Part shown: one piece after another, positions 2,654 to 60,362 of the stretch
Position numbering within the stretch: the stretch's first letter is position 1
How the letters are laid out: the number at the start of each line of letters is the position of its first letter
From: Prochlorothrix hollandica PCC 9006 = CALU 1027
GTDB lineage: Bacteria; Cyanobacteriota; Cyanobacteriia; Prochlorotrichales; Prochlorotrichaceae
NCBI RefSeq assembly: GCF_000332315.1
Contig: NZ_KB235939.1
Span: 109,136-173,135, forward strand
Reading direction: 5' to 3'
Length of the DNA stretch: 64,000 nt
Program-made: the position numbers and the translations under genes
Notes under the pieces: model-generated
Databases searched by the model: none
What the model saw: only the letters and a program-made list of their open reading frames with translations
Told to the model about the DNA's origin: nothing

Positions 2654-2802
2654 CTTTCTCCTCTGGAGCGACCCGGTTCTGATTATAAAGTCTGGGCCGC
2701 TGCCCATGTTCCCAAACCGGACGGGGCGCAACAATGCCTAGGGGGAGGGCTGGTGGTGGGGGTTAGGCGCGATCGTGAACAGACCGACACGCCCAGCGAT
2801 AC
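2643..2802. repeat. 160-bp direct repeat, copy 1 (priA promoter region)
   Basis: This segment matches 3571-3730 in the same orientation with an offset of exactly 928 bp and only three mismatches that I can see. It holds the priA -10 box, ribosome site and first codons. It also supplies the last 12 codons and the stop of the gene at 2763-3305. Matching ends abruptly after position 2802. Confidence 0.93.
2682..2687 (-). promoter_or_regulatory. priA: Candidate -10 box of priA promoter
   Basis: Read on the minus strand this is a perfect TATAAT, about 29 bp before the chosen priA start codon, with an AGAGGAGA ribosome site in between. No good -35 hexamer is seen at 16-18 bp spacing. An identical box lies in the duplicated copy at 3610-3615. 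Confidence 0.5.
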
Positions 2803-3305
2803 CCGGGTCCGATCGCCAGCACTTGCGCACTGGGCATCAACAAAACCCAGTGTTGTAGCTCATCTTCATCCCACAGATCAGGATAGAGAATGAGCGCGTG
2901 ATTCTCAGAAAAGGACAAGCTGGTTTCTAGGGTTTCGGGATCTAGGGTCAGATTCAGGAGGGTTTTGCCCTGGAGGGTGTCTCGGCTGAATCCCTTGGCT
3001 TGGGCAATCTCGCGATCGGTTTGGGGAGCATCAGAGTCCAGGAGAAGCTGCCGATCGCCATAAAGCTTCCAAGGGGTCGCACGGGTACAAAGCCCCCAGG
3101 TGCCCCGTTTGAGGTGGGTCAGTTGAGGATGCCCACAGGGAGATAGTGGCCCAAAGTCTAGGCAGAGTTCATCACCATGGCTAAAGTGAACCTGGGTGCA
3201 GGTTTCTCCCACAAGGGACTGGGTTAGGTGCTGAAATATGCCAGGAAGCAGGACTTTCTGGAGTTGCTCCGAATGCGCTAAGGTCTGGGATTTAAGCATC
3301 GTCAT
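2763..3305 (-). CDS. Hypothetical protein, possible immunity partner of the upstream toxin-like gene
   Basis: The protein is 180 residues, soluble and acidic, with no signal peptide or membrane segment; I do not recognise its family. It overlaps the upstream small gene (3292-3495) by 14 bp, so the two are probably co-translated. The last 12 residues (YRWACRSVHDRA) are read from repeat copy 1, and the same peptide could be read from copy 2. The native carboxy end therefore seems to have been replaced when the repeat arose. Base composition is less GC-rich than in flanking priA, which fits acquired DNA. An immunity role is inferred only from gene order and size. Confidence 0.6.
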   Translation of the reverse strand: MTMLKSQTLAHSEQLQKVLLPGIFQHLTQSLVGETCTQVHFSHGDELCLDFGPLSPCGHPQLTHLKRGTWGLCTRATPWKLYGDRQLLLDSDAPQTDREIAQAKGFSRDTLQGKTLLNLTLDPETLETSLSFSENHALILYPDLWDEDELQHWVLLMPSAQVLAIGPGYRWACRSVHDRA

Positions 3306-3495
3306 ACCCTAAGAATTCCTTTGCTTTTTGCTTGAGTTCTTCAAAGGTGAAGTCTCCTTTTGGATTAAGTGTCCCCTGGTTCCCCTCTAACTTTTCACTT
3401 TCTATAAAGTCGCCAAAGTCTCGACGCTGGATCTCATCCATGTGAAATAGCCGAGCAACGGCTTCAATTTGTTTAATGTCGCGTTTCTTGCCCAT
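3292..3495 (-). CDS. Small protein resembling a polymorphic-toxin C-terminal fragment
   Basis: The 67-residue product is charged and probably helical. It has the pattern DIKQIEAVAR, then RRDFGDFIE, then GDFTFEELKQKAKEFLG. From memory, similar stretches occur at the carboxy ends of secreted polymorphic or contact-dependent toxins; I cannot name the family and have not searched. The gene lacks any toxin delivery domain, so it may be an orphan tip, an antitoxin or an unrelated small protein. It overlaps the next gene by 14 bp. A duplicated priA promoter lies about 115 bp upstream and could drive the pair. Confidence 0.55.
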   Translation of the reverse strand: MGKKRDIKQIEAVARLFHMDEIQRRDFGDFIESEKLEGNQGTLNPKGDFTFEELKQKAKEFLGYDDA

Positions 3496-3570: not shown

Positions 3571-3730
3571 ATTGTTGCCATCTTTCTCCTCTGGAGCGAC
3601 CCGGTTCTGATTATAAAGTCTGGGCCGCTGCCCATGTTCCAAAACCGGACGGGACGCAACAATGCCTAGGGGGAGGGCTGGTGGTGGGGGTTAGGCGCGA
3701 TCGTGAACGGACCGACACGCCCAGCGATAC
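3571..3730. repeat. 160-bp direct repeat, copy 2 (duplicated priA promoter)
   Basis: This is the partner of 2643-2802. It carries the same TATAAT box (3610-3615, minus strand), ribosome site and the codons for MATI, after which the frame departs from priA. It lies directly upstream of the two small minus-strand genes. On its right it abuts the 84-bp tandem palindromic repeat. Confidence 0.93.
3610..3615 (-). promoter_or_regulatory. Duplicated -10 box, candidate promoter of the 3495-2763 gene pair
   Basis: This is the exact copy of the priA TATAAT within repeat copy 2. It points toward the two small genes at 3495-2763, with an untranslated leader of about 110 nt. Confidence 0.4.
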
Positions 3731-3980
3731 ACCTCCCGACAAATCCATCGCCTGGGATCGTCGAGTTGTACTCGACCCAAAGCCGACTGCAAGTCGGCTC
3801 TCCCAGAGCAATACACCTGCCGACAAATCCATCGCCTGGGATCGTCGAGTTGTACTCGACCCGAAGCCGACTGCAAGTCGGCTCTCCCAGAGCGATACAC
3901 CTGCCGACAAATCCATCGCCTGGGATGGTCGAGTTGTACTCGACCCGAAGCCGACTGCAAGTCGGCTCTCCCAGGGGGAT
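3729..3980. repeat. Three tandem 84-bp units, each with two hairpins
   Basis: Units begin at 3729, 3813 and 3897 and are nearly identical. Each contains GTCGAG-TTGTA-CTCGAC and AGCCGACT-GCA-AGTCGGCT, two perfect palindromes in a fixed order, followed by CTCCCAG. The same hairpin pair recurs at 24535-24716. All three frames stay open across the repeat, so long open frames here are artefacts of the repeat. Confidence 0.9.
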
Positions 3981-4057
3981 ATGAACGGTTACTTTAGCCC
4001 ATAAAATCGGTTTGTTTAAATCCCAAAATTTTCCCCACACACCCGAATATTCCCGGT

Positions 4058-4226: not shown

Positions 4227-4331
4227 GATCTGCTGTTACCTGGTACCGGATCGCTGAAAAGCTGATTATTCCGTCGATTTTTACGGTACAGAAAGTTTTT
4301 AGGATCGCCGGAAAAGCTTATAGGTTACACT

Positions 4332-6671
4332 TCACAAGTCTCGATGCGAGAGAAGAGACACTACTATTCCACGCCCCTTCCACTCCCCCCCCGGGAGGTG
4401 TCCCAGTACACCCGTACCACCCCACTCCAAATCTGAGTATCCCAGCCACCTATCGTTCACATGCCAGCCCACTTCTTTACCAAACGCTGTCCATAGTTTA
4501 TCACCGGGATAGCTCCCGTCTAGCTTGCCTCCACATTTTACATAGATTTCCTTTTGGATGCTGAAACCATAGCGGTTGTTGCTATAGTTTCGCCATAACC
4601 CATCGATCTTCAACAACTCCTCCCAGGGAAAGTTTAACAGTTCCTCTGGTTCAAACGCCTGCCCTTCTTCCTTCCCCACCGCCGTAATCATTAGCCGATA
4701 GGTCTCCCGATCCGCCTTTTGCCACTCCCCGTTTTTCAGGAAGTTCTCTAAATCCCTGAACCGAAACAGTTGGACTTGCTCCGCTAACTGGGCCAACTCC
4801 TGCTCCATGTCCGGCCCTAACTTCCGGGTCGATTCCTGCCAGATGGTATAGGCCAACTCCACCGCCATCTTGTCCCCAATACCGCACAATTTGCGGATCA
4901 ACCCAGCAGGGTTCCGCATTTGGGCACCATAGAGCAAAATCGGTTCCTTCCAGGCTGGTTTGTCGTAGCTTTGCAGCATCAGTTTTTCCTGCTGCGTCCG
5001 CTTCACCTCCAGCGCCGCCAAGTAGTTCTGGAAACTGAGGTGGGAAAACTCATACTCCTGGGCCTCCCGCTCCACCAGCAACTCACTGACCCGCACCACC
5101 GTCCGCAGAAACTCCGCCGGTTCCACCGCCACCCCCGGAGCCAGATCCAGCCCCGAATCCGCCCCCCTGTCCGTCTCCTGCTCCGTCTCCTGCTCCGTCT
5201 CCAAGCGCTGCAACATCTGCCCTAACAACCTCAACAACGGTTTTTCCGTCACCGTCCGCAACTCCTGCTTCACCATCGCCAGGGCCACCCCCTGCAACAC
5301 CTCCTGGATCTCCTCCCAGGGCAGGGGCATGGCCACCCGCTTGGCCAACGGTCGCGCCCCCAACTGCAACTTGCAAATCTCCTGGTACAGTTCCCCCCGG
5401 CGCTGGGGCAGTTCCTGACCGGGATAGAACCGATGGAAGGTACCGATCAGGTTCAACAACAGAGGATTTTTCGCCAAATCCTGCAACTCTGGCCGCTGAT
5501 TCAACTGCTCTAGTAATGTTTCGGCGCTTTTCTGGGCTTCTTGAACCACCTCCGGCGTTTTCCGCCCCCCCCGCACATAGCTTTCCTGGCACAAATACCA
5601 CTGGTGCAAAAATTTCGCCTGTTGTGCTTTGTTAAAGGGCTTCACAAACAGCGTCATCGTCGGCTGTGCCCCCGTGAACTGATCGTTATAAACCTCGTTA
5701 TAAGCATTGGGGCGACTGGTGATGATAAACACCGCTTCGGGGTAAGCTGCCATCTGCTGCCCCATCCACCGGGCCAAAGCGGGCCGATTTACCGCCTTTA
5801 CCTCATCCAACCCGTCCCACATCACCAAGGCCCGCCGCCGCGTTCCCCGCAGCACCTGTTCCGCCCACTCCTCCGGAGGCTGGAGCTTTGCCCCCGCAGG
5901 CAAGCGGGGGATGTGGTGCTGGGTAATCAACTGGGCCAAGTCTAGGGTTTTCAGATCATCCATTTCTCCCGGTAAAAGCTGAAAATTCCGCAAATAAATC
6001 AAAAACGGCATCATTGGGGCAGCAGGGTAGGCTTTTTGCGTCTGATCGCCATAAACAAAGGTCAAATTCCGCAATAACGTTGTTTTGCCATAGCCGCCCC
6101 ATGCCTTAATCGCCATGTGCCGATAGGCCGGAACCGTCTCCACCTCCTTCAGCAAGTCCCAAATACTCAGCCCCTCCCGTGCCGCCAGCTTCTCTAGTTG
6201 ATTGTCTTGTAGCTTCATCAGCCCCCGAAACACGGGCCACAGTTGCCCTTCCTGCCCCCGCACCGCCACATCACTCAACTCCAAAGGCACAAACACCTCC
6301 GACAGCATCGGCACAAAGGTAGACGCACTGCCCCCCTCCACTTGGTAATCCCGACACATCGCCGCCTGTGCCGCTAAATAGGCCATTTCAAATTCCGAAA
6401 GCTGATCCCGCCGCAACGTCTCCCGCACACCACTAAACAACTGCTCCACCGCTGCTACAGCACTATCCGCCCCGGCGCTGCCCTTATCCCGCATCACCTC
6501 ATCCAGCCGTTCCAGAAACGCTGCCGAATAGGCCGCCCAAGCCGTGCTGCCCGCCAACCACGGAAAGGTGAGCAAGGTCTGCACCCAATCCTGAGCTAGC
6601 ACCGCATTGCCCATCAGCGCAAAGCTCGCCCCAAAGGGCATCCAGCGGATCAACGTCTGTCGCACTTTCAT
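4332..6671 (-). CDS. NACHT-family STAND NTPase with C-terminal GUN4 domain
   Basis: The product is about 779 residues. The amino end has two hydrophobic segments within the first 50 residues (around WMPFGASFALMG and TLLTFPWLAG), suggesting membrane attachment. A NACHT core follows: Walker A GGYGKTTLL near residue 192, Walker B LVMWDGLDE near 282, and a sensor-like IITSRP near 316, then a helical region. The last 140 residues match GUN4 (FPWEELLKIDGLW, RYGFSIQ, GGKLDG, VGWHV), a tetrapyrrole-binding domain that stimulates Mg-chelatase in its single-domain form. NACHT proteins are NLR-like switches, and several bacterial ones act in antiphage defence; here the GUN4 end would be the sensor. The ATG at 6671 follows GGGGGATGGGTGAGG; upstream starts at 6689 and 6722 are possible. 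Architecture is clear, role is inference. Confidence 0.88.
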   Translation of the reverse strand: MKVRQTLIRWMPFGASFALMGNAVLAQDWVQTLLTFPWLAGSTAWAAYSAAFLERLDEVMRDKGSAGADSAVAAVEQLFSGVRETLRRDQLSEFEMAYLAAQAAMCRDYQVEGGSASTFVPMLSEVFVPLELSDVAVRGQEGQLWPVFRGLMKLQDNQLEKLAAREGLSIWDLLKEVETVPAYRHMAIKAWGGYGKTTLLRNLTFVYGDQTQKAYPAAPMMPFLIYLRNFQLLPGEMDDLKTLDLAQLITQHHIPRLPAGAKLQPPEEWAEQVLRGTRRRALVMWDGLDEVKAVNRPALARWMGQQMAAYPEAVFIITSRPNAYNEVYNDQFTGAQPTMTLFVKPFNKAQQAKFLHQWYLCQESYVRGGRKTPEVVQEAQKSAETLLEQLNQRPELQDLAKNPLLLNLIGTFHRFYPGQELPQRRGELYQEICKLQLGARPLAKRVAMPLPWEEIQEVLQGVALAMVKQELRTVTEKPLLRLLGQMLQRLETEQETEQETDRGADSGLDLAPGVAVEPAEFLRTVVRVSELLVEREAQEYEFSHLSFQNYLAALEVKRTQQEKLMLQSYDKPAWKEPILLYGAQMRNPAGLIRKLCGIGDKMAVELAYTIWQESTRKLGPDMEQELAQLAEQVQLFRFRDLENFLKNGEWQKADRETYRLMITAVGKEEGQAFEPEELLNFPWEELLKIDGLWRNYSNNRYGFSIQKEIYVKCGGKLDGSYPGDKLWTAFGKEVGWHVNDRWLGYSDLEWGGTGVLGHLPGGEWKGRGIVVSLLSHRDL

Positions 6672-10784: not shown

Positions 10785-11387
10785 TTAGTCCCCGATCGCA
10801 TTCATCAGGACTTCCATCAGGGGCACCTCAGCCATTTCGTCCATGGTGATGGCATCACAAATATCAAACTTAGCCCCCACTTCTTGCAGTTGGTCATCCA
10901 AGGCTTTAAGAAATTGGTACGCTCCGGCATCGTTGCCCACTTGGATAAAGGAAATGGCCAATTCTGCATCCTGATCCATGCGTTGGGTAGCCGCCACAAT
11001 GGTAGCGATGACTTCACGGCGATCGCTGGGTTCCCCATCGGTAATGACCAACAGGGTCTCCCCCTCTTTGGTAATTTGGCCCGCTGCTTTGCGCTGGAAA
11101 AAGTTATCCATGGCATCCTTGAGGGGAGGGGCTAAATTGGTTCCCCCCATGGGATCGTTCTCCAGGAAAATGGTTTCCACTTGGCCCGATGTCACATTGT
11201 CATAGCGCTTAAAACGGCTGGAAAAGGTATAAACCGTAATGCCATCAGGATCCAGTTGTTCACACTTGCGGGCCACCGCTAGGGTAGACTCCTGGGCGGA
11301 AACCCAACGGCTGACACCACCGGGTTGATCCGTCAGGGACATGCTGCCACTTTTGTCCAAAATTAGGGTGTAGTCACGATTTTTCAT
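10785..11387 (-). CDS. VWA-domain protein, paralog 1 (purE-proximal)
   Basis: This is one of four tandem paralogs, each exactly 200 residues from the conserved M(K/Q)NRDYTL start. The MIDAS metal site is visible as DKSGSMS near residue 10, a GGTNLAPPL stretch carrying the MIDAS threonine, and TDGEPSD. The fold is the small cytosolic VWA type seen in TerY-like proteins, which bind a divalent metal and usually scaffold complexes. There is no signal peptide or membrane helix. The frame stays open upstream to 11420, but the paralog alignment favours 11387. The gene ends two bases before purE. The partner is unknown. Confidence 0.88.
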
Positions 11388-11438
11388 GGTTAAGTCCAGG
11401 GTGTGTTCAGGGTCTATCAAGGGGAATTAGTCAGCTTG

Positions 11439-11546
11439 AGCCTAGTTTTCAGCCTAGTTTTCAGCTTGGTTTTTAGCCTAGAAACTAGCCTAGTTTTTAG
11501 CCCGGTTTTTAGCCTAGTTTTTAGCCTAGTTTCTAGCCTAATCTTC
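11439..11546. repeat. Nine tandem 12-bp units between VWA genes
   Basis: The unit is AGCCTAGTTTTT with small variations, repeated nine times in exact 12-bp phase. The last unit overlaps the 3' end of the gene at 11538-12140. Lacking internal stops, it forms a spurious plus-strand frame rich in LVFS. It looks like a slippage-prone intergenic minisatellite. Confidence 0.93.
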
Positions 11547-12140
11547 GATCGCGCTCATCAACACTTCCGCCAAGGACATCTCTGCCATATCATCCATGGT
11601 GATGGTGTCACAAATATCGAACTTAGCCCCCACTTCTTCCAGTTGATCGTCCAAGGCTTTGAGGAAGGTCTTAGCCCCTTGATCGTTACCCACTTGAATA
11701 AAGGAAATGGCTAGCTCTTCGTCCCGATCTAGGTGTTGGCTCACCGCCACAATCACATCAATGACCGATCGGCGATCGTTGGGTTCCCCATCGGTAATCA
11801 CTAAGATGGTTTCCCCCTCCTTATCCAGTTGGCCCGCTGCCTTGCGCTGGAGAAAATGGGTGGTGGCATCCCGCAAGACATCGGCTAAGTTGGTTAGTCC
11901 CATGGGATCATTTTCTAAAAAGATGGTTTCCACTTGGCTAGCGGTCACATTGTCATAGCGTTTGAAGCGAGTCGAAAAGACATACACAGTCATGCCATCG
12001 GGATCTAACTGCTCACACTTGCGGGCTACCGCTAAGGTGGATTCCTGGGCTGCAAGCCAGCGGCTCATGCCCCCCGGCTGATCGGTAGTGGACATACTGC
12101 CACTTTTATCGATAATTAAGGTGTAATCGCGGTTTTTCAT
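11538..12140 (-). CDS. VWA-domain protein, paralog 2
   Basis: This is a 200-residue paralog of the VWA proteins on either side. It has DKSGSMS near residue 10, MGLTNLADVL carrying the MIDAS threonine, and TDGEPND. The C-terminal stretch ([23 protein letters not shown]) is shared by the family. It starts with ATG at the conserved MKNRDYTL; no alternative is needed. The stop overlaps the 12-bp repeat that separates it from paralog 1. Function is unknown beyond metal-dependent protein binding expected of VWA domains. Confidence 0.88.
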   Translation of the reverse strand: MKNRDYTLIIDKSGSMSTTDQPGGMSRWLAAQESTLAVARKCEQLDPDGMTVYVFSTRFKRYDNVTASQVETIFLENDPMGLTNLADVLRDATTHFLQRKAAGQLDKEGETILVITDGEPNDRRSVIDVIVAVSQHLDRDEELAISFIQVGNDQGAKTFLKALDDQLEEVGAKFDICDTITMDDMAEMSLAEVLMSAIED

Positions 12141-12240
12141 CGTTTTGAGGGTTCTAAAAATTTGATGGGTCTACAACTATCAGGAGCTGGAGGATCAGAA
12201 GCTTGAGGCTCTGGGGAAAGTGACGGCCAGCCTTGCGGGC

Positions 12241-12843
12241 CTAATCGTCAATGGCAGCCATCAAGATTTCCGTTAAGCTCATGTCTAACATTTCATCTAA
12301 GGTAATGGTGTCACAAATATCGAATTTTGCCCCAATGTCTTGTAACTGATCATCCAAGGCTTTGAAATATTGACGGGCACCACTATCATCGCCAATTTGG
12401 ATAAAGGAAATGGCGAATTCTTCATCGCGATCGAGGTGCTTCGTGGTTTCCACGATAATTTCCACCACGGCCCGTTTATCATCGGGTTCCCCATCAATAA
12501 TAACAAAAAGGGTCTCCCCCTCTTTATCCAGGGTTCCGGCCTGTTTGCGCTGGAGAAAATTACGGGTTGCATCTTGAAGAACCATGGCTAAATTGGTGCG
12601 GCCCATGGGTTCATTTTCCAGGAAAATATCTTCTACTTTACTGGAGGTAACATTGTCATAGCGCTTAAAGCGGGAGGAAAAGAGATAGACCGTTAAACCA
12701 TCGGGATCCAACTGCTCACATTTGCGAGCTAGGGCCAATACCGACTCCTGGACTGCCTGCCAACGGGTCATGCCATCCCCTTGATCGGCTTTGGACATGC
12801 TGCCACTGCGATCGATGATTAAGGTGTAATCACGGTTTTTCAT
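12241..12843 (-). CDS. VWA-domain protein, paralog 3
   Basis: This is the third 200-residue paralog. MIDAS residues are present as DRSGSMS, GRTNLAMVL and DGEPDD. The usual ITDGEP reads IIDGEP here, which changes a neighbour of the metal-binding aspartate but not the ligand. It also carries LDEMLDMSL where the others have MDDMA or MDEMA, making it the most divergent copy. About 100 bp separate it from paralog 2. It could be diverging in partner choice. Confidence 0.88.
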   Translation of the reverse strand: MKNRDYTLIIDRSGSMSKADQGDGMTRWQAVQESVLALARKCEQLDPDGLTVYLFSSRFKRYDNVTSSKVEDIFLENEPMGRTNLAMVLQDATRNFLQRKQAGTLDKEGETLFVIIDGEPDDKRAVVEIIVETTKHLDRDEEFAISFIQIGDDSGARQYFKALDDQLQDIGAKFDICDTITLDEMLDMSLTEILMAAIDD

Positions 12844-12852
12844 GGTTGGGTT

Positions 12853-12891
12853 CCTAAAAGTTTTGCCTAAAAGTTTTGCCTAAAAGTTTCG
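12853..12891. repeat. Three tandem 13-bp units upstream of VWA paralog 3
   Basis: The unit CCTAAAAGTTTTG is repeated three times, with a degenerate fourth copy following. It lies just before the start of paralog 3, in its untranslated leader. A similar slippage-type repeat lies between paralogs 1 and 2. Confidence 0.75.
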
Positions 12892-13078
12892 GCTAAGAGT
12901 TCTTTCTAAGGCTTTCAGGGTTTCTGGAGACCCTATAACTGATCATGCTGGGGTGTGAGGGGAGATTGTCCCGCTGGAGCCAGGGAACTCCCTCGGTGGG
13001 TCAACTCACACAACGGATCAACGCTATTCATAGCCTACTTATCCCCTCATCCTCCGACTATCCGACTCCAACTATCCC

Positions 13079-13681
13079 CTAATCCTCAATGGCATTCATG
13101 AGGACTTCCACTAAACTCATATCTGCCATGTCATCCATGGTAATAGTGTCACAAATATCAAACTTAGCCCCCACTTCTTCCAGTTGGTCATCTAAGGCTT
13201 TAAGGAATTGACGGGCGCTGGGATCATTGCCCACTTGAATAAAGGAAATTCCCAACTCTTCATCCCGATCTAAGCGATGGGTTGTTTGTAAAATAACTTC
13301 AATGACGGCCCGCTGATCATCGGGTTCTCCATCGGTAATCACTAAAATGATTTCCCCTTCTTTATTCCAGCCGGGGGAATTTTTACGGTTCAGAAAATTT
13401 TGGGTGGCATCCTGCAAAACTGCTGCCAGATCCGTGCGGCCTACGGGATCATTTTCCAGAAAAATCTGCTCTACCTTGGCGGCAGTGACATTGTCATAGC
13501 GCTTGAAACGGGAGGAAAAGGTATAGACCGTAATGCCATCCGGATCTAACTGTTCACACTTGCGGGCCAGGGCCAGGGTAGACTCCTGGGCTGCTTGCCA
13601 CCGGGTTAAGCCCCCCCCCTGATCGGCCACGGACATACTGCCGCTTTTATCGATAATCAGGGTATAGTCGCGATTTTGCAT
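13079..13681 (-). CDS. VWA-domain protein, paralog 4 (first in the run)
   Basis: This is the promoter-proximal member of the four-gene VWA run, also exactly 200 residues from MQNRDYTL. MIDAS elements are DKSGSMS near residue 10, GRTDLAAVL and TDGEPDD. It has KNSPGWNKEGE where the others have KAAGQxxKEGE or KQAGTLDKEGE, a small loop change. The ATG at 13681 is chosen because AAGGAGC lies about ten bases upstream; the frame is open to 13708. It is separated from paralog 3 by 235 bp that I see no gene in. Confidence 0.88.
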   Translation of the reverse strand: MQNRDYTLIIDKSGSMSVADQGGGLTRWQAAQESTLALARKCEQLDPDGITVYTFSSRFKRYDNVTAAKVEQIFLENDPVGRTDLAAVLQDATQNFLNRKNSPGWNKEGEIILVITDGEPDDQRAVIEVILQTTHRLDRDEELGISFIQVGNDPSARQFLKALDDQLEEVGAKFDICDTITMDDMADMSLVEVLMNAIED

Positions 13682-13741
13682 GTTTAACTTGCTCCTTGCC
13701 TCAGTCATAACGACCTCAATCTGTTACAAAAATACAAAAAG

Positions 13742-59498: not shown

Positions 59499-60362
59499 TT
59501 ATTGCCCAAGGGCCACCAAGCCAAAGGCGATAATGGTGACCCCAGAGATCCGGTTGACCCATCCCAAGCGGGCAGGGGTGAAGTGGTGGCGGAGGCGGGC
59601 CGTACAGCCGCTGAGGCAGAGCCACCAGGTGGCAGAACCCAGGAAAATACCGCCAATCAGGGCTAGGGGTGCGGCGATCGCGGTAGTTCCCACCACTCCC
59701 AAACCAGCAAAAATGGCAGTAAAGGCTAAAATCGTGGCAGGGTTAGTCAAGGTGAGCAGCAAGGTAGTGCCATAGGCTATTAGTAATTTTTTCAGGGTAA
59801 TTTTCGGCGTATTGCTGGGAGGAGTTGGGGCGATCGTGGCCTTTGCGTCCGAGGAGGGGGATGCCGCCAAGGGTGCGGACGGTGCCAATCGATCGGAGCT
59901 AGAGGAATCAGAGCTTAAGGAATCAGAGCTTAAGGAATCAGAGCTTAAGGAATCAGAGCTTAAGGAATCAGAGCTTAAGGAATCAGAGCTTAAGGAATCG
60001 GAGCTTAAGGAATCGGAGCTTAAGGAATCAGAGCTTAAAGAATCAGAGCTTAAAGAATCAGAGCTTAAGGAATTGGAGGTGGGGGAACTTTGGAAGGTGC
60101 GCACCCCTAAATAACAGAGAAAGAGTCCCCCAACGGTGTGCAGCAGCCCTTGGGAGTCAGTCAAAAAACCACCCAGGGCCGATAGTCCTAGGCCGGCAAT
60201 GCAGCCATAGAGGGCATCAGCCGTGGCGGCTCCTAGGCCCGTAGCCAGCCCCATCCACCAGCCCTGGGCTAGGGTTTGGCGAATACACAGCACCCCGATC
60301 GGCCCCACCGGGGCAGCAATGGCCAATCCCAACACAAATCCTCGCCCCAGCGTTGTAACCAT
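59499..60362 (-). CDS. LysE/RhtB-family exporter with a SSDSL minisatellite insert
   Basis: The 287-residue protein is a small inner-membrane amino-acid exporter. The first half has helices with APVGPIGVLCIRQTL near residue 16 and GLATGLGAATADALYG near 37, the LysE family signature; helices return after residue 180. Between helices 3 and 4 the usual short cytosolic loop is replaced by about 12 copies of SSDSL plus a low-complexity spacer (residues about 93-175). The insert is coded by a 15-bp minisatellite on one strand. The frame is intact, so it is likely expressed, with an acidic, Ser-rich loop. Exported substrate is unknown. Confidence 0.86.
   Translation of the reverse strand: MVTTLGRGFVLGLAIAAPVGPIGVLCIRQTLAQGWWMGLATGLGAATADALYGCIAGLGLSALGGFLTDSQGLLHTVGGLFLCYLGVRTFQSSPTSNSLSSDSLSSDSLSSDSLSSDSLSSDSLSSDSLSSDSLSSDSLSSDSLSSDSLSSDSSSSDRLAPSAPLAASPSSDAKATIAPTPPSNTPKITLKKLLIAYGTTLLLTLTNPATILAFTAIFAGLGVVGTTAIAAPLALIGGIFLGSATWWLCLSGCTARLRHHFTPARLGWVNRISGVTIIAFGLVALGQ
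59896..60075. repeat. Twelve tandem 15-bp units inside the LysE gene
   Basis: GAATCAGAGCTTAAG (plus-strand view) is repeated in exact 15-bp phase; units start every 15 bp from 59896 to 60061, the first and last being degenerate. Because the unit is a multiple of three, copy-number change keeps the reading frame. Minor A/G changes mark a few units. Confidence 0.97.

Follow-up and report, generated by a model that had tools for sequence, protein, structure and literature searches.

Programmed hypermutation of bacterial sensors, where it is known, works by reverse transcription. In multicellular bacteria, diversity-generating retroelements (DGRs) act in this way on sensors of the NACHT, kinase and TIR kinds (PMC10907252, PMC7517822); they have a local target as well as remote ones, and a conserved 3′ site follows the variable C-terminal segment. 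Two groups of Y1 transposases also bear comparison with the locus described here: the IS200/IS605 elements, in which a Y1 HUH enzyme is accompanied by a small terminal hairpin, and the RAYT/TnpA-REP proteins, among which TnpA subclass 2.1 (RAYT group 1) is without REP flanks (PMC6006769). Bacterial NACHT proteins and antiviral STAND proteins of the NLR-like kind combine an N-terminal effector, a NACHT core and a C-terminal sensor. Fusions of GUN4 are likewise already known (PMC7159879, PMC8195603, PMC2853523, PMC1262709); the GUN4 passages of the first two deal with conflict proteins in which the domain is joined to kinases, caspases, TIR domains and STAND NTPases, and contain no mention of a hypervariable tail, a conserved element or a link to Y1. 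In the open-access literature searched, neither the element nor any hypervariation of GUN4 was found to be described.

The window, a stretch of 64,000 nucleotides from Prochlorothrix hollandica PCC 9006, carries a gene for a NACHT-GUN4 protein (Table 1). The preliminary description of this gene overlooked its last 19 codons (4332-4391), which comprise a hypervariable segment and the start of a conserved element. From comparison of sequences we consider it somewhat likely that a transposase-associated, junction-type diversity system for NLR-like, kinase and caspase sensors has this gene among its remote targets.

Table 1. Features of the NACHT-GUN4 gene and its 3′ end, in positions of the window.
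Feature	Position	Strand	Basis or remark
Conserved element, ~121 bp, starts TCTTCTCTCGCATCGAGACTTGTGA	4236..4356	-	small hairpin TCTCG-CAT-CGAGA
NACHT-GUN4 protein, 779 aa	4332..6671	-	open frame, Pfam NACHT and GUN4, 41-member family alignment
GUN4 domain, residues 636-776, paralogue type	4344..4766	-	Pfam E 6.2e-32, residue comparison with 43 canonical GUN4s
Hypervariable segment, 35 bp, GGGGGGGAGTGGAAGGGGCGTGGAATAGTAGTGTC	4357..4391	-	coding for GGEWKGRGIVV and a portion of the codon that follows
Conserved Gly-His-Leu-Pro codons, bounding the variable segment upstream	4392..4403	-	alignments
NACHT NTPase core, residues 193-358	5598..6095	-	Pfam PF05729 E 4.5e-9, invariant P-loop/Walker B, Foldseek NLRC4
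N-terminal helices, residues 16-62 (predicted)	6486..6626	-	DSSP on low-confidence model part, hydropathy, TIR swap (L073)

The full NACHT NTPase of the preliminary description was borne out by a Pfam match, and the motifs quoted for it are invariant in 41 homologues, so that 4332-6671 is not a chance open reading frame. Residues G193, G195, K196, T198, D286, G287, D289 and E290 do not vary across these homologues, and nor do R320, P321, H544 and Q548 (P-loop, Walker B and winged-helix set). An AlphaFold model built on the family alignment has a mean pLDDT of 81; its best PDB match in Foldseek is NLRC4 (4kxf, E 2.7e-11), followed by NLRP3 and NOD2, and its last part matches GUN4 structures (7e2r, TMt 0.82). 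As in NLRs, the N-terminal part is exchangeable: most family members have weakly hydrophobic helices there, and in one, at locus L073, a TIR domain replaces the usual N-terminus. The fold matches and this exchange support the earlier proposal of an NLR-like switch, and the protein is NLR-like by sequence and by modelled fold. The likeness to bacterial NACHT and STAND proteins is one of sequence and fold, and the window protein differs from them in having a GUN4 scaffold with a hypervariable tail rather than repeats. Of the membrane-anchored amino end that had also been described, the helices are predicted (pLDDT mostly below 50) and the anchor is weak, with a best 19-residue hydropathy of 1.2 against a family median of 1.5. 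Since these helices are weakly hydrophobic and poorly modelled, an anchor is possible at most; they may occupy the effector position, and a membrane hairpin could lie there. The PADLOC match to PD-T4-6, a kinase defence protein, was rejected, as it spans residues 591-765, the GUN4 part only, without a kinase domain. No relative was seen in the phage records searched.

Relatives of the NACHT part occur in 146 of 390 cyanobacterial genomes, and the search for the domain pair across cyanobacteria that had been suggested earlier found the pair to recur, a C-terminal GUN4 being present in all of the 40 best NACHT loci taken with their flanks (L040-L079). GUN4 of the same type is also found at the end of caspases, kinases, TIR proteins and others. 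Five GUN4 genes are present in the window's genome, namely a canonical gun4, a caspase-GUN4, two kinase-GUN4 and the NACHT-GUN4 gene, the kinase and caspase parts being assigned by reading the sequence. Elsewhere, nine GUN4 genes form a tandem array in Arthrospira sp. PCC 9108 (L138:3538-18742); their GUN4 parts are closely similar, their tails differ and most of their N-termini are zinc-ribbon- or coiled-coil-like. In Scytonema sp. NIES-4073 (L150:8768-11530) three GUN4 domains and a caspase lie in one frame, in which the internal GUN4 copies have a variable segment and element-like DNA that is read through. At L148, L149 and L156, GUN4 is joined to what by eye are EAD1/CHAT-like and KAP-like NTPase parts, fusions that look like links of the GUN4 module to further conflict architectures.

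The preliminary description suggested that the GUN4 domain senses tetrapyrroles and so controls the NACHT switch. PMC7159879 likewise puts forward tetrapyrrole sensing for the GUN4 domains of conflict systems, which differs from a reading in which the tail is the sensor. The GUN4 domain itself is confirmed by Pfam (Table 1) and by fold, which is in favour of a tetrapyrrole sensor, but the residues by which the ligand would be bound are not retained. In 43 canonical GUN4s, Phe196, Asn211, Arg214 and the Arg that precedes the pocket loop are strictly or almost strictly invariant (Synechocystis numbering; LxNxLR as bilin motif, Arg214 and Phe196 as porphyrin residues, from PMC10156173 and PMC8967248). 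These positions show no consensus among 92 NACHT fusions or among 39 other fusions. A tail of LxNxLR type is present in 41/43 canonical proteins, in 0/92 NACHT fusions and in 0/39 other fusions. Furthermore, the pocket loop site of canonical GUN4 is the exact position of the hypervariable segment in the fusions. At the level of sequence the bilin and porphyrin residues, whose absence had been named beforehand as speaking against the sensor, are thus lost from the fused domains, in agreement with the loss of the bilin motif reported for GUN4 paralogues (PMC10156173). The same paper shows that in Chlamydomonas GUN4 the Asn of the motif is needed for binding of bilin and not of porphyrin; mutation of this residue spares porphyrin binding, and therefore fused GUN4 domains could have kept some residual porphyrin binding. 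With the binding residues absent, a tetrapyrrole sensor was rejected as the main reading and we regard it as very unlikely; it is plausible that C-terminal sensing proceeds via the hypervariable peptide and not via the porphyrin pocket.

The segment begins directly after a conserved Gly-x-(Leu/Phe)-Pro, where the pocket loop would be. Its length has a median of 52 bp (5-95% range, 30-90), and for 155 elements after GUN4 the lengths modulo 3 are 51/59/45. The composition is G 37.5%, T 31%, A 18% and C 13%; G+T amounts to 0.69, against 0.46 in the 60 nt upstream, and we infer from the strand asymmetry of this excess that capture of random double-stranded DNA is unlikely. Stop codons, counted by a test that is independent of alignment, make up 5 of 2,784 codons in the coding frame, compared with 124 of 2,733 and 137 of 2,674 in the other two frames and 4.9% in shuffles. 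Since stops are scarce in the coding frame only, the segment is translated and under selection.

Near-identical copies of these genes, with flanks that are 85–97% identical, were compared in loci collected via anchors and with the upstream boundary called by motif. Of the 37 pairs that agree in at least 85% of the ~330 bp upstream, 36 have segments that could be aligned no better than shuffles, while in the same 37 pairs the mean identity was 86% for the 30 nt before the segment and 90% for the 30 nt after it; the difference in length was not a multiple of three in 24 of these pairs. Examples are two Trichodesmium MAGs with 93% identity over 1.3 kb, tandem Arthrospira copies with 96% identity, and two loci of Xenococcus PCC 7305 that share 100 identical bases downstream. 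One pair, L233/L266 (upstream identity 97.6%), has identical segments, so change of the segment is not constant. Near-identical strains were compared on plasmids, where the GUN4 genes are without the element. It is clear from these alignments and counts that the segment is hypervariable between fixed boundaries, free in its frame and selected for coding.

The element that follows has the start consensus TCTTCTCTCGC(A/G)(T/C)(C/A)(G/C)AGACTTGT, and the tail that it supplies to the window protein is LLSHRDL. All three frames of the element are first open and then stopped in 139 of 155 cases; the commonest stop distances, 12, 7 and 9 codons, give the tails SSLASRLV..., LLSHRDL and FSRIETC... A segment of any length therefore yields a complete protein. 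As judged by HMM, 155 of 162 distinct elements come after a GUN4 domain, the exceptions looking truncated or degenerate, and NACHT-, kinase-, caspase- and TIR-GUN4 genes are terminated by it alike. The element lies near the stop in 79/91 NACHT-GUN4 genes and 31/37 other fusions, and was found in none of 60 records of canonical gun4 loci. A class-wide pattern scan detected the anchor in 118 of 390 genomes, with no matches listed for the reversed control. Rfam returned no match to the element, and in single-strand folding of the whole element the small terminal hairpin alone recurs, with weak z-scores.

Sharp boundaries with a conserved 3′ flank are also seen in known cassette systems, and the tails might be swapped by gene conversion from silent cassettes, as in pilin variation. 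However, a 23-mer of the element (up to 3 mismatches) occurs at four sites in the window's genome, all of them at its four fused GUN4 genes, and no silent copies of the element are present there; one segment was searched by BLAST and no second copy of it was found, and segments match the flanks of other loci almost as well as their own (LCS 9.4 for other loci, 9.9 for their own). Such conversion is hardly credible as the source of the variation. Alternatively, a DGR could act in trans on the GUN4 tails, given that the window's genome has one at C9:102 kb (RT, accessory protein, template and two CLec/FGS targets) and that kinase, caspase and GUN4-like architectures are among the targets of DGRs in cyanobacteria (PMC7517822). 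But the four segments of this one genome differ in length (35, 43, 67 and 70 bp), none of the four anchor sites belongs to a template, no further copy of the tested segment was found, and the template and 3′ end of the resident DGR look unrelated to GUN4 tails. The RT is present in the genome with its own template and targets, and an action of this DGR on the tails was rejected as extremely unlikely. The resident locus (L312, G000:C9:102031-102672 region) is a textbook DGR, with an RT of 362 aa, a 116-aa accessory protein, an AAC-rich template repeat and two FGS/CLec targets.

Clustering of the neighbours at GUN4 3′ ends revealed one strongly recurrent gene, for a Y1/IS200-like transposase of ~255 aa (Pfam Y1_Tnp 1e-18), which is present in 24 of the 113 loci and always convergent. 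The motifs HUH, WEKRYH and YIHANP are invariant in it, and the best match of its model (mean pLDDT 66, with a better Y1 core) is 4er8, a RAYT-REP hairpin structure, with IS608 and ISDra2 also close. With TnpA subclass 2.1, that is RAYT group 1 (PMC6006769), Y1 has in common the NHVH, WE and YIHxNP motifs and likewise a length of ~250 aa, a C-terminal extension, low copy number and the fold of 4er8; its signature, assigned by motifs against the table of that paper, fits this subclass. Y1 differs from RAYT/TnpA-REP proteins in being linked not to REPs but to the ~121-bp element found with GUN4 genes, and the RAYT papers found describe no role in sensor variation. One Y1 model (m503f6f0a3be1, L354:3447-4229:-) also has a weak Foldseek match to Thg1 (E 8e-4), which probably reflects a shared ferredoxin-like core and not function.

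Among the 30 best Y1 homologues from 390 genomes, 29 are convergent to a GUN4 gene at a distance of 32-150 bp between the 3′ ends; the neighbourhood of the thirtieth is cut off by a contig end. The anchor is present in 53 of 64 genomes with Y1 (at least ~60% identity) versus 65 of 326 without it (Fisher p 8e-22, the counts being tallied by reading result tables). Comparison of the genomes thus demonstrates that Y1 is linked to GUN4 genes with the element. The window's genome has one Y1 (C9:411976-412728), beside the caspase-GUN4 gene, and on balance we would take the window's NACHT gene to be a remote target of the Y1 system.

Of 300 locus pairs, 249 show conserved DNA on the GUN4-facing side of Y1 and 4 on the far side. 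Since only one side is conserved, the locus is not an IS with two ends; it resembles IS200/IS605 in its Y1 HUH transposase and small terminal hairpin, but differs in having one conserved side, with no second end seen, and in being convergent with a host gene. It could still be argued that Y1 belongs to a selfish IS200-like element that favours the 3′ ends of GUN4 paralogues, the segment being debris of imprecise insertion, excision and drift in which only stops are selected against. Consistent with this, Y1 is transposase-like, degraded Y1 copies are common beside elements, and short copies of the flanks are occasionally present in segments. However, a selfish element does not account for the missing second end, for a strongly conserved Y1 subfamily whose members mostly occur once or in few copies, for elements without Y1 that keep the same sequence and boundary, for segments that are unrelated between such closely similar flanks, or for a strand-asymmetric G+T excess; we consider it unlikely, though a serious alternative. 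G+T of the segment is 0.78 beside an intact Y1 and 0.66 without Y1 (p 0.011, in a small post hoc test). It speaks against an action of Y1 on the segments that many elements have, within 1.2 kb, no Y1 at all or only a degraded one.

The system resembles DGRs in its local and remote targets, its conserved 3′ site and the NACHT, kinase, caspase and TIR sensors on which it is found. It differs from them in that there is no RT at the locus, no template repeat was found and the partner is a Y1 transposase; nor is there adenine-specific substitution, length and frame vary, and the scaffold is GUN4 and not a C-type lectin. Conservation limited to the GUN4-facing side, the failure to find a template and the variation in length mean that the GUN4-tail system is neither a DGR nor an ordinary IS.

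We infer that Y1 makes the variation, and the following account of how it would do so, and of what the tail would bind, is of the same kind. The fused GUN4 would be a scaffold with a hypervariable peptide in the place of its former tetrapyrrole loop, and in the window protein it would serve as the C-terminal sensor of an NLR-like NACHT switch. The DNA that codes for this peptide would be a short segment, enclosed by the GUN4 coding sequence on one side and the ~121-bp element on the other. A domesticated Y1/HUH transposase of RAYT type would recognise the element as single-stranded DNA, probably via the terminal hairpin, and nick at the junction, near TC/TCTTCTCTCG; repair, or biased and largely untemplated synthesis, would then leave a new G+T-rich stretch of arbitrary length. 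To our knowledge HUH transposases do not add random sequence, and so an additional polymerase must be assumed. Translation would select open segments, and the element, closed in three frames, would make any length usable. In the window's genome Y1 would act beside caspase-GUN4 and on three further targets elsewhere, the NACHT protein and two kinases. The diversified tail might detect or dock to variable partners, for example proteins of invaders, and the response would come from the attached NACHT, kinase, caspase or TIR unit.

Taken as a whole, the reading of a cyanobacterial diversity generator that uses a domesticated HUH transposase in place of an RT, places G+T-biased junctions of random length in the GUN4 loop of NLR-like, kinase, caspase and TIR sensors and closes them with a three-frame terminator is tentative, its chances being a little short of even. 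A tail linked to a transposase may be a means of sensor diversification that has so far not been described in bacteria; if the reading is true, it would be a second, independent solution, linked to a transposase and with insertions of free length. V(D)J diversity has a transposon-derived origin, to which the system would be a bacterial parallel, and also a prokaryotic counterpart of the junctional diversity of antigen receptors. It would explain why GUN4, a chlorophyll regulator, is a common C-terminal module of NLR-like, kinase and caspase proteins, as a scaffold for a variable loop and not as a pigment sensor, and it gives a domesticated transposase family of the RAYT group 1 type a candidate role.

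The surroundings of the gene lent no weight to the defence island that had been proposed, as PADLOC matches are no commoner next to NACHT-GUN4 than farther away (72 near vs 72 far neighbours). The adjacent toxin/immunity-like pair (2763-3305 and 3292-3495) has no match in Pfam, NCBIfam or PADLOC. Relatives of its 180-aa member occur in 22 of 291 cyanobacterial genomes; in genome G157 such a relative and NACHT-GUN4 lie ~590 kb apart on the same contig, and in G198 on different contigs. The 67/180-aa pair was accordingly rejected as a partner, belonging to no family and having relatives unlinked to NACHT-GUN4. Three tandem ~75-bp repeats (3703-3984) lie between the 67-aa gene and the NACHT-GUN4 gene, and other dispersed repeats of the window are found near 2650-2734, 3580-3662, 26800 and 63900. 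Farther along, the window contains four tandem vWA (TerF-like) paralogues of 200-211 aa (10785-13708) and what by eye is a LysE-like transporter with about ten SSDSL repeats in the middle of the protein (59499-60362).
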